Below are positions 14,936-37,529 of a stretch of 37,593 nucleotides of DNA, one piece after another; position 1 is the stretch's first letter; each line of letters starts with the position of its first letter. Source of the stretch: Oligoflexales bacterium (GTDB lineage: Bacteria > Bdellovibrionota_B > Oligoflexia > Oligoflexales > JAGOVF01); NCBI GenBank assembly GCA_018060885.1, contig JAGOVF010000018.1:1-37593 (forward strand), written 5' to 3'. The notes beneath the pieces are model-generated. The model saw only the letters and a program-made list of their open reading frames with translations. It did no database searches and had not been told where the DNA came from. Made by a program: the position numbers and the translations under genes.

Positions 14936-17068
14936 TCAGTTGCGCTTCAATTCTTCTGGGTCTGCACTTTTTATATCAACACCCAAACGTTGGATATAAG
15001 CTATCATCGCAACCAGCTCACTGCTGGTGTCTATTGAAATACCATCTTTTGCCAAGCTGCGCTGAACAATCTCAGCTTGATTAAGATAGTAGAATCGCGC
15101 ATTTTCAATCTGCTCATTAGCATAAGGCACCCCAAGTCTTTTCATCACGGTCAACTTATCGTCAATCAATTCAAGATCTACTGTATTTGTTAAGAGCCAA
15201 GGATATGGCGGCATTAACGAACCAGGGGAAGTCGAGCGCGGATCTAACATGTGATTATAATGCCAAAGATCTGGATATTTGCCTCCGACTCGATGTAGGT
15301 CTGGCCCCGATCTCTTCGATCCCCATTGAAAGGGATGATCGTAAACAAACTCTCCGGCATAAGAACGTGTGCCATAGCGCTGCACTTCTGAGATATGAGT
15401 CCGAACCAGCTGCGAATGACAATTGTAACAGCCCTCTCGCAAATATAAATCTCTACCCTCTAGTTCCAGTGGTGTGTAAGGCTTTACGGCCGTGATGGTC
15501 GGAACGTTTGATTCAACAACAAATGTAGGAATAAGTTCGACTATTCCACCTATTAAAATAGAAACCAAAATCAGTGCCGTAAACACGAAAGCTTTGCTTT
15601 CGAGAGCTTCATGCATAGTCGTAGCTTTAGGCTCTCGTTCAGGAACAAAAGTGACGACTTCGTCTTTTGTTTGCGCTGTTTTTGAAGTGGCGGTTTTGTA
15701 AACGTTATAGAAACAAATGATCATTCCAGCCAGATACATCAAACCGCCGATGAATCTCACCCAAAATAGCCATTTGATCGACAAGATAGTTTCTAAGAAA
15801 TTCGGGTACTTTAACAAGCCTTCAGGAGTCTCACTAAACCACATCAATCCCTGAGTGACACCTGCGGCCCACATGGAAGTGACATAGAGAACTAAGCCGA
15901 CTGTCGACCACCAAAAATGCGCATTTGCTAATTTTTCACTATAAAGAGTCGTATTCCACAAGCGCGGAACTATATAATAAGTTACCGCAAAAATCATGCC
16001 TCCGACCCAACCCAAAGCACCTGAATGCACGTGTGCAATAGTCCAATCGTTGAAGTGAGAAATTAAATTTATGGCTTTTATTGATAATAAAGGCCCTTCT
16101 AAAGTCGACATGGCATAAAAAGTCATCGCCACAACAAAGAATTTTACAACTACGTCATTGCGTACACGACTCCAAGCACCTCTTATGGTTAAAAGTCCGT
16201 TAAGCATGCCGCCCCAAGACGGTGCTATGAGCGCCAAGCTAAATACCATACCGACTGTTTGCGCCCATTCAGGCAATGCGGAGTAGAGCAAATGATGTGG
16301 GCCAGTCCAAATATAAAGGAAAATAAGCGACCAAAAGTGAATGATAGAAAGTCGGTAAGAATAAATCGGCTCTTTAACCGCCTTGGGAATAAAATAGTAC
16401 ATCATACCGAGAAAAGGCGTCGTTAAAAAGAATCCAACAGCGTTGTGACCATACCACCACTGCACGAGTGCATCTTGTACACCGGCATAAATCGAATAAC
16501 TTTTAAACCAGGTCAAAGGCAGGGAGAGAGAATTGACAATATGCAAAACAGCAATTGTCACGATAGAAGCCAGGTAAAACCAAATTGCAACATACATGTG
16601 CTGAACACGACGTATTGCTAGCGTAGCAAATACGTTAATAGCCATAGCAACCCAAACTACCGCGATGGCTATATCTATGGGCCATTCAAGTTCGGCATAT
16701 TCTTTTCCTTGAGTAAATCCGAGAGGCAAAGAAATTGCTGCGGCAACTATTATGAGCTGCCAACCCCAGAAGTGAAATGCGCTTAATTTATCTGACCACA
16801 TCCGTGTTTTTAACAAGCGCTGCAATGAATAATAGAGAGCGGCAAAAAAAGCATTTCCAGCGAAGGCAAATATAACAGCATTGGTATGGAGAGGTCGAAG
16901 TCGACCGAAAGTCAGCCAACTTGTATTCATATTTGCTGGCCACCAAGCTAACTGCAAGGCTGCAATAACGCCGACAAGCATGCCGACAATGCCGAAAATC
17001 AAAGTCGCCCACAAAAACATCCTAGCGATCCGATCGTCATATTGGATCTCAATCGTCTTAGCATTCAT
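14936..17068 (-). CDS. ccoNO: Fused CcoN-CcoO, cbb3-type cytochrome oxidase subunits I and II
   Basis: This 710-residue protein is the catalytic heme-copper subunit joined to the monoheme cytochrome c subunit. Residues 1 to about 460 are CcoN. Visible metal ligands are H61 (low-spin heme), H208 in WWYGHNAVGF (CuB), H258 and H259 in TGPHHLLY (CuB), and H346 and H348 in AHVHSGALGW (heme ligands). A short linker (about 465-490) leads to a CcoO-like helix and a heme c site C547-Y-N-C550-H551. The CcoO blocks SGPDLHRVGGKYPD and SLMPPYPWL follow, with M619 the probable heme ligand. In most proteobacteria the two subunits are separate genes. The ATG overlaps the ccoS stop by 4 nt (ATGA). It reduces oxygen to water at the inner membrane and pumps protons. 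Confidence 0.96.
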   Translation of the reverse strand: MNAKTIEIQYDDRIARMFLWATLIFGIVGMLVGVIAALQLAWWPANMNTSWLTFGRLRPLHTNAVIFAFAGNAFFAALYYSLQRLLKTRMWSDKLSAFHFWGWQLIIVAAAISLPLGFTQGKEYAELEWPIDIAIAVVWVAMAINVFATLAIRRVQHMYVAIWFYLASIVTIAVLHIVNSLSLPLTWFKSYSIYAGVQDALVQWWYGHNAVGFFLTTPFLGMMYYFIPKAVKEPIYSYRLSIIHFWSLIFLYIWTGPHHLLYSALPEWAQTVGMVFSLALIAPSWGGMLNGLLTIRGAWSRVRNDVVVKFFVVAMTFYAMSTLEGPLLSIKAINLISHFNDWTIAHVHSGALGWVGGMIFAVTYYIVPRLWNTTLYSEKLANAHFWWSTVGLVLYVTSMWAAGVTQGLMWFSETPEGLLKYPNFLETILSIKWLFWVRFIGGLMYLAGMIICFYNVYKTATSKTAQTKDEVVTFVPEREPKATTMHEALESKAFVFTALILVSILIGGIVELIPTFVVESNVPTITAVKPYTPLELEGRDLYLREGCYNCHSQLVRTHISEVQRYGTRSYAGEFVYDHPFQWGSKRSGPDLHRVGGKYPDLWHYNHMLDPRSTSPGSLMPPYPWLLTNTVDLELIDDKLTVMKRLGVPYANEQIENARFYYLNQAEIVQRSLAKDGISIDTSSELVAMIAYIQRLGVDIKSADPEELKRN

Positions 17069-20743: not shown

Positions 20744-21655
20744 ATGAAAAGGTTTGTTACTGGTAAGAAAATATCTGCTTTTATGATTCTTGGTTTTATT
20801 ATCGGAAATACAGCTCTTGCTGAAAGCTTATTTATCGAGCGCCCACCAAAAATTACCGATTGGGAAGATGTTCTAGATTCGTATTACCAGCTTATCAATG
20901 ATTCAATTCCAACAGATCAAGGCTACACGATTGCTGCAAATAAAGATCAGGCAGATTTTGTATTGGTTCCAAAGGCTCTTCCCGTAGGTGAAAGTTTAGT
21001 TCTGACTTTAAGTAAATTCCAAAAAGGCAACAAGGTTGCGAGCGAAAAAGTAAAATTAGGCAAAGTAGAAGAGCTAGATTTTATGACCGAGAGACTTGTT
21101 TCCGCCGTATTAAAGGGGGTTAGTGTCGACAAAGAGCTTACTGTCGGTAATATTTCTACGAGCGAAAAGGATAAGCTGAAAGATCGCCGCCTATCACGCG
21201 GTCGCTGGTTAGTGGGCTTTGGTCCAGCTGTCGGTTTTAATTTGAAAAACGAAGATGCGATGTTTCATTATACTGTGGGATATTCCTGGGAACTCGAACA
21301 AAGCATCATAAAGCTGCATGTGACTGGCACGGATGGTGTTAATGATGATGAAGGCTATTTAGGAGGAGTTGGCATTTCTTATGGCCACTTGTTCAGTAAG
21401 GCCGATACCGCACAAATCCTCAGTACTGATCTTATTTGGGGAGGCGCTGCAGTCACAAAAGGAGACGCTGCAATTAATGGCTTTGAAGAAACCGCGAAAA
21501 AAAGTGGATTCACTCTCGGTGTCGGATATGGCGTCATGATGTTTCGCACTTCAGATATTGCACTTGAAACTTCTCTGGTTGCGCAGCAGTTTCTTGGCGC
21601 CATCGAAGGCAAGTCTCCCACCACAGTGGGAGCGCGTGTAACTGTACTTTGGTAA
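20744..21655 (+). CDS. Secreted protein with a C-terminal outer-membrane-like beta region
   Basis: This 303-residue protein of unknown function has a clear signal peptide (ISAFMILGFIIGNTALA, cleavage near residue 26). The N-terminal half contains ADFVLVPKAL followed by SLVLTLSKFQKG and EELDFMTERLVSAVLKG, a pattern seen in periplasmic domains that report a parameter of envelope state. The C-terminal half is glycine-rich with alternating hydrophobic and polar residues and ends in VTVLW, a typical C-terminal signature of beta-barrel proteins. The frame is open far upstream, but the ATG at 20744 has AGGAG at the right distance and starts the signal peptide. It converges with the downstream beta-propeller gene (15-bp gap). 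Confidence 0.75.
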   Translation: MKRFVTGKKISAFMILGFIIGNTALAESLFIERPPKITDWEDVLDSYYQLINDSIPTDQGYTIAANKDQADFVLVPKALPVGESLVLTLSKFQKGNKVASEKVKLGKVEELDFMTERLVSAVLKGVSVDKELTVGNISTSEKDKLKDRRLSRGRWLVGFGPAVGFNLKNEDAMFHYTVGYSWELEQSIIKLHVTGTDGVNDDEGYLGGVGISYGHLFSKADTAQILSTDLIWGGAAVTKGDAAINGFEETAKKSGFTLGVGYGVMMFRTSDIALETSLVAQQFLGAIEGKSPTTVGARVTVLW

Positions 21656-21670
21656 TACTTTATGAATCTG

Positions 21671-22891
21671 CTATTCGAGTTCGAAGATAGCTAAAGGGCC
21701 ATCTCCAACTCGAGTAGCACTCAGTGCTTTTAAAGAATCTTTTTCAAGCACTAGCAAACAATCAGAATTAAATTCACTTACAAAAAGATATTCGTTCATG
21801 AGCAAAAGATCCGAGATATAACTAAAATCAGCCGCTTTAAAATCATTACAACGGTTCTCCTGTAAATTGACCCGTCGAAGAATGTTTAAATCTCTCAAGC
21901 TCAACTCCATCACTTCCGCTTTCGATGAGTCGCCTACATAGGCTCGATTTGCAGCAACATCAATGACCATTCTCGTCGGCGCACCTTTAGTGTCAGCGCT
22001 GCCAATTAATTTTTCTGTCTTTGGATCAAATACATCGATATTTCCGTTATCCGCCCAACTACCGGAATTCAGCACATACATTTTTTCCTCAAGAGGACTT
22101 GAAGTCTCAACCACAATTTTTGCGCTATTGTAGCCTGTTGCGGATAAAATAGATTTTACCTGAAGACCTTTTTGGTCAATCACAACAAGCTGGCCGAGGC
22201 CAGCGGGCGTCCAATTGGCGGTTAAATTAGCAACAGCGACGAATATTTTGCCATTGCTGGCTGCTAGTCCCGCAGGTTTTGGTAAAGCTGCCTCTCCACT
22301 ATCATTGTGGTAATTTAAACCCCGCAAATTGATCGTAGCCAGAATTCTTTGCTCTCCAGTTTCTAATTGCAATTTTGGGCGAAAAACCAACACTTGATCA
22401 GTATTAAATAAAGTCACAAAAGCTAAGTTTGCATTTATAATCACAAGCTCCATTGGATTGCTGCCGTTACCAACATCCATTACTTTTTGCAAAACCATGT
22501 TTTTAGAAAACACAAAAATTTGATGGCTTAAAGAGCACACCACATAAATCAATTCTTCAAATCTGGTAATCTGATTCGGCGACTGACAACTCACACTAGA
22601 GGAACCAAGCTTATCATGACCTTTTAGTTCCAGCGCTGCATCCCGCCAACTTAAGCTGCTAAAATCTTCTGATAGACTATTGATGGTGACGATTCGAGAA
22701 GGCTTTGGAAGCTCTTCATCTTCTGCTAAAATTTTAAGCGGATCCTTGGGTTCTGGACTAGGTTTAGAATCTTTATCTTTTCCACAAGCTAGAAAAAAAT
22801 TGGCCGCCAAAATTGCCGTTAGGCAAGCTTTAAGACCATAGCTCCCAATGACTCTGTTTATTTTAATTCCTGTAAACTTAAATACCTGCAT
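21671..22891 (-). CDS. Beta-propeller lipoprotein, BtuG-like candidate
   Basis: The 406-residue protein has a signal peptide with lipobox FLAC and lipidated C36. The mature part is built of repeated beta-blade sequences of the YncE/NHL kind (for example KIFVAVANL, KMYVLNSGSW and RAYVGDSSK). It starts 9 nt after btuB and has its own AGGAG site, so it lies in the same riboswitch-controlled unit. In Bacteroides, BtuG is a surface lipoprotein propeller that binds B12 very tightly and hands it to BtuB. Shared fold, lipidation, gene order and riboswitch control make a BtuG-like role attractive here. Sequence homology to BtuG cannot be judged from this window, so the functional call is an inference. 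Confidence 0.8.
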   Translation of the reverse strand: MQVFKFTGIKINRVIGSYGLKACLTAILAANFFLACGKDKDSKPSPEPKDPLKILAEDEELPKPSRIVTINSLSEDFSSLSWRDAALELKGHDKLGSSSVSCQSPNQITRFEELIYVVCSLSHQIFVFSKNMVLQKVMDVGNGSNPMELVIINANLAFVTLFNTDQVLVFRPKLQLETGEQRILATINLRGLNYHNDSGEAALPKPAGLAASNGKIFVAVANLTANWTPAGLGQLVVIDQKGLQVKSILSATGYNSAKIVVETSSPLEEKMYVLNSGSWADNGNIDVFDPKTEKLIGSADTKGAPTRMVIDVAANRAYVGDSSKAEVMELSLRDLNILRRVNLQENRCNDFKAADFSYISDLLLMNEYLFVSEFNSDCLLVLEKDSLKALSATRVGDGPLAIFELE

Positions 22892-22900
22892 TTGAAACTC

Positions 22901-24802
22901 CTATATAAATGTTTTATCTAAAGACACATAATAACTGCGATTAGGTAAGGCATATCCACGCAAATCCTCGTTTTGTTCATTAAGAGCATTTTTTACATCT
23001 AAATTTAGACCTAAATTTTCTCGTATTTTAAATCGTCCGCCGACATCAAGCTGTTTACTATCGGCAAGCGCCTCGGTATTGGCTCGATTAACATAGCGGT
23101 CGCGCGCGAACATCTGCGAAATATAAAAAGCGGTGCTTGGATTTACCTGATAATCAAGGGCAACTGTACCGAAAAACTGTGCCTGTCCCGGAATTTTTTT
23201 GCCGAAGTACTCACTGTGTGGATCTGAGTCTTCGTTGTTCTGCAATGTTAAATTAAGCGCTGAAGAAAACTTATCTGCCCACTTAGTATGAAAGGAAGTC
23301 TCTACACCTTCTGCTCTGGCTCTAGAAAAATTGAACGGCTTATATTGGAATCCAGATACAGAGACATATTCGATTAAATTTTTTGAATCATAACGAAAGT
23401 AATTTACGCCTAATTTTACTTTGTTGTCGATTAACTCGAATCCAAAATCAAATCCACGATTTTTTTCAGGATTTAAATTCGAATTGCCAACAACGGAACC
23501 TTGCTGTGTGTAAAGTTCAACAAAACTTGGATAGCGAAAGCCTTCGACGTAATTTGATTTTAAAAATAAATTTGAAAGCAATTCATAATTTATTGAAAGA
23601 CCTTGAGAGCTTTGACTCGTTTCATGGCTCGCAGTTACGAGCGACATATTCGTTGTTAAGGTGCAATTATTAATAAAATTCCAATTAAATCCGAGACTGA
23701 AGCTTGCTGTGTCTCTGGAATGCCCTTCTTCTGCAAAAGAAAATGTCTCCTGCGCAAATAAAATTCGCCAATGTGGAACAATATTATTTTTTTCAAAAAA
23801 ATTTAAATAAAGCTGGCTATTAATTTCGACGCCACCACTTTTAGATTCTTGTTCTTGATGAAGCTTGAAGCCATTAATTTCGCCTGCCGGGTCATCAAGT
23901 ACTTGAAGGATATCTGCTGCATAGATTCCAACTTTAAGCTCGTTTTTTAAAAGCCGCAAATCACCGCTTAAAAAATCTGCACGCAAAGCTCTGTTTTGTT
24001 GGCGGACAGAGTAAAGCCGGTGACCTACCCTGCCAGGCACGCCGCGATCTGTTGTAGAGTAGACAATATTTGCCGTGCCAAATGGATGGCTTGCAGCTGC
24101 GTTAAGCGCGTAATTTTCTGAATCATTGTTCTGCAAAGTAAATTTATTTTGATATTGTGCAGAATCAAATAATTCCTTCTCAGCTTTATTTCGTACTACA
24201 TACTTTCCACTTTCACTTTCATAGAGACTGCTAAGACTCAGCTTAAAAGTTTTAGCTTTTCGAGAAAAGCGTCCTGCAATATTTTTTTTTCCGAAAGAAC
24301 CCACACCCATTTTCAAATTATTTATTGGTAGGCCGACCTTGTCTTCAAGTAGAGGATTGGTAATAATATTAATGACACCACCCATGGCAGAATTGCCATA
24401 AACGCTAGACATCGCCCCACGACTTACATAAATTCTAGATATCGACTCTTTTGGAATCAGCAAAAGATCTTGCAAAGAGCTACCGGCACTTTCGAATGGA
24501 AGCCCATTAACAAGGATTTTTATTTGTTGGCCTGTGAATCCTCGTACATTTATTTTATCTTGCTGTAAGCTGTTGCTCCTTTGAATGTAGAGCCCCAGTG
24601 TCGCTTCTAAGACGTCCAAAACATCGCGAAATCGTGTGTTTTGAATCTCTTCTTCTTCAATAACATCAGTATGACTACCTAAGGGCACTTCTTGAGGCAG
24701 CTGAACTGCAGAAACGATAATTGTTTCAGCTTGAAGCGTCGGTCTACAAAGAATTAAAATGGATATTAAATAAAATACGCCCACATGCGGATGACTAAAC
24801 AC
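22901..24802 (-). CDS. btuB: TonB-dependent outer-membrane receptor, probable vitamin B12 transporter BtuB
   Basis: The 633-residue protein has a signal peptide (cleavage after residue 25) and a TonB-box-like ETIIVSA at 26-32. A plug domain follows with NVRGFTGQQIKILVNGLP and the YVSRGAMSSVYGNSAMGGVINI block, and then a beta-barrel with aromatic-ended strands. The specificity call rests mainly on the cobalamin riboswitch directly upstream. The start is GTG at 24802, 6 nt after AAGGGGA, about 25 nt past the aptamer, so the riboswitch may act on translation. It is followed 9 nt later by the propeller lipoprotein. The receptor imports cobalamin across the outer membrane using energy from TonB. 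Confidence 0.9.
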   Translation of the reverse strand: MFSHPHVGVFYLISILILCRPTLQAETIIVSAVQLPQEVPLGSHTDVIEEEEIQNTRFRDVLDVLEATLGLYIQRSNSLQQDKINVRGFTGQQIKILVNGLPFESAGSSLQDLLLIPKESISRIYVSRGAMSSVYGNSAMGGVINIITNPLLEDKVGLPINNLKMGVGSFGKKNIAGRFSRKAKTFKLSLSSLYESESGKYVVRNKAEKELFDSAQYQNKFTLQNNDSENYALNAAASHPFGTANIVYSTTDRGVPGRVGHRLYSVRQQNRALRADFLSGDLRLLKNELKVGIYAADILQVLDDPAGEINGFKLHQEQESKSGGVEINSQLYLNFFEKNNIVPHWRILFAQETFSFAEEGHSRDTASFSLGFNWNFINNCTLTTNMSLVTASHETSQSSQGLSINYELLSNLFLKSNYVEGFRYPSFVELYTQQGSVVGNSNLNPEKNRGFDFGFELIDNKVKLGVNYFRYDSKNLIEYVSVSGFQYKPFNFSRARAEGVETSFHTKWADKFSSALNLTLQNNEDSDPHSEYFGKKIPGQAQFFGTVALDYQVNPSTAFYISQMFARDRYVNRANTEALADSKQLDVGGRFKIRENLGLNLDVKNALNEQNEDLRGYALPNRSYYVSLDKTFI

Positions 24803-24827
24803 CAGATTCCCCTTGCTCGAGAGTTAC

Positions 24828-24934
24828 AGCTAGATTGGCAGTCGGACTTGTAGAAGATGAGATCTGAACTCAAATTTTACTTACCGTTGCGGCACAGTGT
24901 CGGACTTTCACCGATCTTCCCCAGAACTAGCTAG
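24828..24934 (-). promoter_or_regulatory. Cobalamin riboswitch aptamer
   Basis: Reading the minus strand, the hallmark blocks appear in order: GGGGAAG, GGTGAAAGTCC, GTGCCGCAACGGTAAG, and the B12-box-like ACTGCCAATC. The ends can pair (AGCTAG at 24927-24932 with CTAGCT at 24828-24833) to make P1. At about 107 nt it is shorter than the longest cobalamin riboswitches. It ends about 25 nt before the GTG of btuB and close to its AAGGGGA site. Binding of cobalamin would therefore be expected to lower btuB and propeller expression, most simply by blocking translation. No terminator hairpin with a T-run is visible in the expression platform. Confidence 0.92.
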
Positions 24935-24950: not shown

Positions 24951-25000
24951 TATTATTTCGCAATTTTTCGCAATTTTTCGCGATTTTTCGCAAAATTTCT
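24951..25000. repeat. Tandem 10-bp repeat (CAATTTTTCG type)
   Basis: Two exact copies of CAATTTTTCG (24961-24980) are followed by a one-base variant (CGATTTTTCG) and a decayed copy (CAAAATTTCT), and preceded by a partial TTATTTCG. The array lies between the 3' end of tRNA-Val and the cobalamin riboswitch, both on the minus strand. It has no hairpin of terminator type. Confidence 0.7.
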
Positions 25001-25014
25001 CAAATAATTGCAAA

Positions 25015-25091
25015 TGGTGGGGATACTCTGATTCGAACAGAGGACCTTCCGCTTGTAAGGCGGACGCTCTAACCAGCTGAGCTATACCCCC
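25015..25091 (-). tRNA. tRNA-Val (anticodon TAC)
   Basis: The minus strand from 25091 to 25015 folds as a standard cloverleaf of 77 nt. The acceptor arm pairs GGGGGTA with TATCCCC (one G-T pair). The anticodon arm has stem CCGC/GCGG and loop CTTACAA with anticodon TAC. The T arm is CTCTG-TTCGAATCAGAG with the invariant TTCGAAT. The 3' CCA is encoded in the DNA. The D arm contains GCTCAGCTGGTTAGAGC. TAC reads the valine codons GTA and GTG. Confidence 0.96.
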
Positions 25092-36341: not shown

Positions 36342-37343
36342 ATGCAGCCATCCAATCATCAGAAAAATTCAAATTCTTACGATGATCTAGTGCAAACATT
36401 CTCTCAGCATGAATCTTTTTGCAAATCGATAATTGATGGATATTTATTACTTGACAACAATTCAAAACCACTTAAATGTAACGCCTTATTCAGCCAAATA
36501 CTGAATATTAAAACCAAACTTATTCTAAAATCTGATAAGCTCTCTGACATTTTGGTATTTATACATAAAGGCATTGAATTATCTTTTAAAGATCTCTTAG
36601 ATAGCAAAGAAAATAAGTTTGAAGAAATTGTTGGAATTTGCAAAGACGGCCCAGAAAAGGGTACCCGATTTAATTTAATACTGGGAATTCATCGCTTTTT
36701 GGATTCAGATGATTGTCCCATTGGAGCATTGCTCATTATTCGTAATATCACTGCAGAAATTGGCCTAAAATCAAAGTACAAAAATCGAGCCAAAGAATCT
36801 ATTACTGATGCATTGACACAGTTGTACAATCGCAACTACCTTGAAGAATTTCTCCAAAAACAAGTCAATCTCTATAAAGAAAAAATCAAGGCCAATTCCG
36901 TCGATGAATCTTTCTGTATCGCAGTCATTGATATAGATTTTTTTAAAAAAATTAATGATGTCTATGGTCACCAAGCCGGCGACTACGCGCTCAAAATTCT
37001 CGCCACGCTCATGACTAAAACATTTCGAAAAGATGATGTTATCTGTCGCTTCGGGGGAGAAGAATTTATTATTGTTTTTAGCAAAACGACTGTTCAAGGC
37101 GCTAAAGTCGCCCTAGAAAAGTTACGTAAACTTTGCGAAGAGACCGCATTGACTTTCGAAACACATAACTTCAAAATGACCGTCAGCTCTGGAGTTTCAG
37201 AATATCTTCCTGGCGAAAGTATCGATGAGACCATTGCCCGTGCAGACGCTGCACTCTATAGCTCAAAAGAACATGGACGCAATAGGGTTACGGTGTATCA
37301 ACCTCAGCATTCAGATTTAGATGAGAGTTCGCAGGCTGTTTAG
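36342..37343 (+). CDS. Diguanylate cyclase with a PAS-like sensory domain
   Basis: The 333-residue protein begins with a PAS-like region (about 20-140, IIDGYLLLDNNSKPLKCNAL), then a GGDEF domain. The active site reads G238-G-E-E-F242, the form associated with cyclase activity. The inhibitory I-site RxxD (R229-K-D-D232) lies five residues before it, so product inhibition is likely. DIDFFKKINDVYGHQAGD and the downstream RADAALYSSKEHGRNRV are conserved. There is no TM segment, so it is cytoplasmic and senses an internal signal. It follows the STAS protein by 14 nt. It makes cyclic di-GMP from two GTP. Confidence 0.93.
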   Translation: MQPSNHQKNSNSYDDLVQTFSQHESFCKSIIDGYLLLDNNSKPLKCNALFSQILNIKTKLILKSDKLSDILVFIHKGIELSFKDLLDSKENKFEEIVGICKDGPEKGTRFNLILGIHRFLDSDDCPIGALLIIRNITAEIGLKSKYKNRAKESITDALTQLYNRNYLEEFLQKQVNLYKEKIKANSVDESFCIAVIDIDFFKKINDVYGHQAGDYALKILATLMTKTFRKDDVICRFGGEEFIIVFSKTTVQGAKVALEKLRKLCEETALTFETHNFKMTVSSGVSEYLPGESIDETIARADAALYSSKEHGRNRVTVYQPQHSDLDESSQAV

Positions 37344-37385: not shown

Positions 37386-37529
37386 TTTAGTTTGTAGCTG
37401 GGTGTATCTGCCCTGCCAGAGGACCGCTCAATTTTTAAGCCATCCATGGCAAAATTTTCGCTACGGGTTCGGGCATCCCGCCCTCACCAGTTCCTCTGGC
37501 AGGGCAGATACACCCAGCTACAAACTAAA
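37386..37529. repeat. 38-bp perfect inverted repeat around a 68-bp spacer
   Basis: The left arm is 37386-37423 and the right arm 37492-37529. They are exact reverse complements over all 38 bases, and the next base on either side does not match. The spacer is 37424-37491. The arms include TGTAGCTGGGTGTATCTG on the left and its complement on the right. The element begins about 40 bp after the GGDEF stop. It has no transposase and no obvious target-site duplication in view. It could be a non-autonomous mobile element, a strong RNA hairpin, or a recombination site. Confidence 0.85.

Follow-up and report, generated by a model that had tools for sequence, protein, structure and literature searches.

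Between positions 24932 and 21671 of the window (the whole 37,593-nucleotide stretch of Oligoflexales DNA that was analysed), the minus strand was found to carry, in this order, a cobalamin riboswitch, probably of AdoCbl-II type, a TonB receptor of BtuB type and a lipoprotein beta-propeller. We consider with high confidence that these elements form an AdoCbl-controlled corrinoid uptake unit. By analogy, the balance leans modestly towards a propeller that supplies BtuB with captured corrinoid, in the manner of Bacteroides BtuG. A convergent BtuG analogue is proposed more tentatively, as a serious possibility: outside Bacteroidota, a YncE-like propeller would have acquired its lipid anchor independently and teamed up with an E. 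coli-type BtuB to trap corrinoid at the cell surface.

Riboswitch leader and gene layout

The leader aptamer (24828..24932, minus strand) matched the full-length RF01689 AdoCbl-II model (positions 1-81 of 81) in a local scan, with 35.7 bits and an E-value of 1.1e-6. Over the whole 3.6 Mb genome, this leader ahead of btuB was the sole RF01689 match (E=1.4e-6), which bears out the cobalamin riboswitch of the initial annotation, though the score lies 0.8 bit below the Rfam gathering score of 36.5, so that a default Rfam scan misses the aptamer. Matches to RF00174 fell on the same aptamer only (23.7 bits), and GGTGAAAGTCC and GCCGCAACGGTA, stretches typical of cobalamin aptamers, were found within it. 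The minimum-free-energy fold of the leader was uninformative (z=1.64), as is to be expected when pseudoknots matter. The link from aptamer to start codon (24803..24827, minus strand) carries an SD-like AAGGGG just 5' of the receptor start, a GTG at 24802; no terminator-like site was found in this link, which, judging from its sequence, is a candidate expression platform of translational type.

An RNA scan placed a tRNA-Val(TAC) just ahead of the aptamer (25015..25091, minus strand), at a distance of about 83 nt, and it may share a transcript with the riboswitch leader. Short near-repeats of GCGAAAAATT lie between the two (24955-25000, minus strand) and could belong to a terminator or promoter region. 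The receptor gene (22901..24802, minus strand) and the propeller gene (21671..22891, minus strand) are separated by 9 nt from stop to start, as annotated initially. Downstream of the propeller, a convergent ORF ends at 21655, and the btuB-propeller unit therefore consists of two genes. Its GC and GC3 values equal those of neighbouring genes, indicating a native base composition. Elsewhere in the window, a 710-aa ORF (14936-17068, minus strand) encodes a fused CcoN-CcoO (cbb3 oxidase catalytic subunit COX1 and FixO/CcoO), and a TwoAYGGAY RNA, a cis-regulatory candidate scoring 47.5 bits (cut-off 43), was found at 37387-37528 (minus strand) near a GGDEF protein gene on the opposite strand (36342-37343).

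The receptor and the lipidated propeller

The 633-aa receptor displays a signal peptide, a TonB-box-like ETIIVSA that aligned with DTLVVTA of E. coli BtuB, and Pfam Plug (PF07715, 2.7e-20) and TonB_dep_Rec barrel (PF00593, 3.5e-25) domains, both above cut-off. The top NCBIfam model was TIGR01779 (TonB-B12, 4.9e-39), at 134 bits for a cut-off of 599.7, and haemin receptor models followed at no great distance. E. coli BtuB entries ranked first in a single-sequence PDB search, while a two-member profile gave 4.9e-30 for E. coli BtuB versus 2.1e-14 for Bacteroides BtuB1. The best PDB match, the TIGR01779 score below cut-off and the TonB box together point to a divergent, E. coli-like BtuB, and the BtuB-type receptor claimed at the outset is thus retained. 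Plug, barrel, TonB box and overall length are those of E. coli BtuB (PDB 1nqe), but identity to the latter is 24% and no propeller accompanies btuB in E. coli. An AF2 model of the receptor obtained from a two-row alignment reached a pLDDT of 26 and was left out of the evidence. In view of the riboswitch and of the needs of the host, the receptor would import corrinoids.

The 406-aa propeller starts with a signal peptide in which the lipid-bearing Cys36 follows a hydrophobic segment; its lipobox (FFLA-C) is somewhat degenerate, that of its relative from a second genome being clean (LLSA-C). A linker of about 65 residues separates Cys36 from the propeller. All five mature cysteines are conserved in this relative, and the conservation of Cys102, Cys119, Cys348 and Cys378, besides the lipid one, makes two disulfides likely (Cys102/119 and Cys348/378). 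No Pfam family was reached, and NCBIfam yielded weak YncE-type matches alone (NF052280, 20.6 bits for a cut-off of 400). Searched against the PDB, a short propeller fragment found no match, whereas a two-member profile retrieved an archaeal YVTN propeller (7.5e-7), YncE (2e-5) and the Lp49 propeller antigen of Leptospira (PDB 3bws, 1.3e-3). The BtuG chains came at E-values of 2.3-2.9 in the same search. The family comparison proposed in the initial annotation accordingly came out in favour of YncE and against BtuG, and, as sequence homology failed, the protein should not be named BtuG.

Structure prediction, suggested at the same time, was performed with AF2 on a thin alignment (pTM 0.71) and gave confident blades over residues ~100-396. 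Six four-stranded blades were confident and a seventh would take in low-confidence N-terminal residues. In a Foldseek search of the PDB, YncE ranked first (1.4e-12), BtuG1 with cyanocobalamin fourth (8.1e-12) and Lp49 eighth, and eleven BtuG-type chains were among the top 50. YncE and BtuG thus ranked together at the top, but many unrelated propellers with seven or eight blades (WD40, NirN, AztD) followed so closely that the fold alone does not discriminate. Residues conserved between the two relatives showed no significant clustering on a single loop face (p=0.15). The lipidated propeller of the initial annotation is supported as a lipoprotein of the YncE/BtuG fold.

Recurrence of the pair and corrinoid need of the host

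Analysis of 58 searchable genomes of the phylum retrieved the receptor profile in two of them and the propeller profile in the same two. Were both independent, the chance of this exact co-occurrence would be 1 in 1653, kinship being ignored. The pairing of BtuB and propeller is therefore not an accident of one genome. The two carriers belong to different families of the same order, and each protein is 31-34% identical between them, a similar degree of divergence for both. In the second genome, whose record reads 'Deltaproteobacteria bacterium isolate bog_1112', 59 bp remain between btuB and the end of contig C61, and the propeller lies on contig C342, from 182 bp onwards. These contig ends share a 16-bp exact overlap within a dispersed repeat, of which several copies were found in C342. 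Direct as well as inverted copies of the repeat, ATCCCTCACTGCGTTCGGGAT, separate btuB from the propeller (L009 1-120 and L008 3330-3345). On the simplest reading, the gene order would here too be btuB then propeller, the assembly having been broken by the repeat. One contig also carries an mmdA/propionyl-CoA carboxylase-like gene and the other a methylmalonate-semialdehyde dehydrogenase; both flanks belong to propionyl-CoA metabolism, which leads to a B12 enzyme, in agreement with adjacency as well as with B12. No riboswitch was recognisable at this btuB copy. A wider search for the propeller family among genome contigs with a single protein, viral contigs and plasmids brought nothing new, its sole match (PLEQ01000509.1) being evidently contig C342, and only two genomes are known to carry the family.

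The genome of the window encodes MetH, methylmalonyl-CoA mutase (MCM) and IcmF, as well as a three-gene ABC importer of BtuFCD/siderophore type located elsewhere from the unit. Searches that were positive in control genomes found neither a MetE-type synthase nor CobS in this genome, and both absences are likely, not certain, as the assembly is 93.5% complete. With B12 enzymes present and MetE and CobS not found, corrinoid scavenging is probably essential to this host. The BtuFCD-like genes (L020 2284-5107, plus strand) lie head to head with GldA/GldF-like ABC transporter genes (L020 517-2294, minus strand). A CarH-like MerR regulator with B12-binding domains, below the NCBIfam cut-off, was also observed (L025 1419-2327, minus strand) and is possibly a B12-based light sensor.

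Role and origin of the propeller

BtuG has been found only in Bacteroidetes, a restriction explained by the competitive gut (Wexler et al. 2018, PMC6143338), and the lid mechanism of BtuB-BtuG has been defined by Abellon-Ruiz et al. (PMC10404256). The literature searched, which covered few subscription journals, described no BtuB-propeller lipoprotein pair outside Bacteroidetes. Like the Bacteroides pair (PDB 8blw, 8bmx, 3dsm), the present unit combines a B12-type TonB receptor with a lipid-anchored protein of propeller fold under a corrinoid riboswitch, in a B12-dependent and apparently scavenging host. However, its propeller has no significant sequence relation to BtuG and has two likely disulfides, its BtuB is nearer the E. 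coli type, and no Bacteroidota-type lipoprotein export signal was recognised. The 'extreme affinity' of BtuG2 is not transferable to this propeller.

A BtuG-like capture is favoured by the riboswitch, by the exclusive co-occurrence of both genes, by lipidation and by the fold. At low cellular adenosylcobalamin, the leader, presumably repressive otherwise, would permit expression of receptor and propeller. The latter, lipid-anchored on the outer membrane beside BtuB, would face the surface in complex with the receptor, bind corrinoid and deliver it as BtuG does in Bacteroides. Import by BtuB would draw on TonB energy, and the BtuFCD-like importer would finish uptake, so that MetH, methylmalonyl-CoA mutase and IcmF are supplied. 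The equivalent two-part B12 capture suggested in the initial annotation is thus supported in part, by the riboswitch/BtuB/lipoprotein-propeller unit in a genome outside Bacteroidota, by its recurrence in exactly one other family of the phylum and by the corrinoid need of the host.

In proteobacteria, the default orientation of lipoproteins is towards the periplasm. This inward default, together with the missing lipobox of YncE, makes a periplasm-facing role the main rival, although we regard it as unlikely. The propeller would then be an outer-membrane lipoprotein that takes corrinoid from BtuB, aids its hand-over to a BtuF-like binding protein, or acts next to the receptor, as may be the case for YncE and PqqU. 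Among bacterial envelope propellers, YncE (PDB 3vgz) is indeed its closest significant solved relative and, as in the present unit, the E. coli YncE gene adjoins a TonB receptor gene, pqqU (PqqU/YncD). Yet that gene is divergently transcribed from pqqU, it is not under a riboswitch and the partner takes PQQ. No known signal for lipoprotein surface export was identified in the propeller, and a SLAM search, in which controls had no match either, was uninformative on this point. Likely disulfides suit periplasm and surface equally. On the other hand, the E. coli BtuB-BtuF hand-over needs no such protein, and the long linker between lipid and propeller, as well as the 1:1 gene pairing, recall surface capture lipoproteins.

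An accessory or structural lipoprotein that travels with the receptor and serves its assembly, stability or gating, binding no B12, appears rather improbable. Such a role would agree with the lack of a Pfam family and of a significant focus of conservation on one loop face, but control by a B12 riboswitch and a fold similar to B12-binding lipoproteins speak against it.

Acquisition of a true BtuG from Bacteroidota, along with its btuB, is very improbable: fold and pairing are the same, but BtuG chains scored worse than YncE, the receptor resembles E. coli BtuB more than Bacteroides BtuB1, and GC and GC3 equal those of neighbouring genes. Just as hard to sustain is a receptor for a cobalt chelate or a PQQ-like or haem-like compound, with a riboswitch that merely senses B12 status, a reading that could build on the low TIGR01779 score and the nearby haemin models but conflicts with E. 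coli BtuB as best solved match and with a genome that needs corrinoid and holds just one weak match (6.8e-6) to another receptor of BtuB kind.

As to origin, inheritance, transfer and convergence from a YncE-like protein had all been considered initially. A propeller nearer YncE and archaeal YVTN proteins, a receptor nearer E. coli BtuB and a native composition favour a pair put together independently of Bacteroides BtuG; the propeller would be a YncE-like protein recruited independently, rather than a BtuG orthologue. Direct transfer from Bacteroidota was rejected on the profile E-values for BtuG and YncE, the PDB ranking of the receptor and the native GC and GC3, and an ancient transfer retains a small residual probability.

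BtuG was described as exclusive to Bacteroidetes and tied to the competitive gut (PMC6143338). In the present unit, BtuB would be paired for a second time with a lipoprotein propeller, of apparently unrelated origin and in another phylum, with one case coming from a bog metagenome. If this reading is true, capture of B12 by propellers would be a repeated solution to corrinoid scarcity, evolved more than once, and the protein described here would be an independent one for asking what makes a propeller bind B12.
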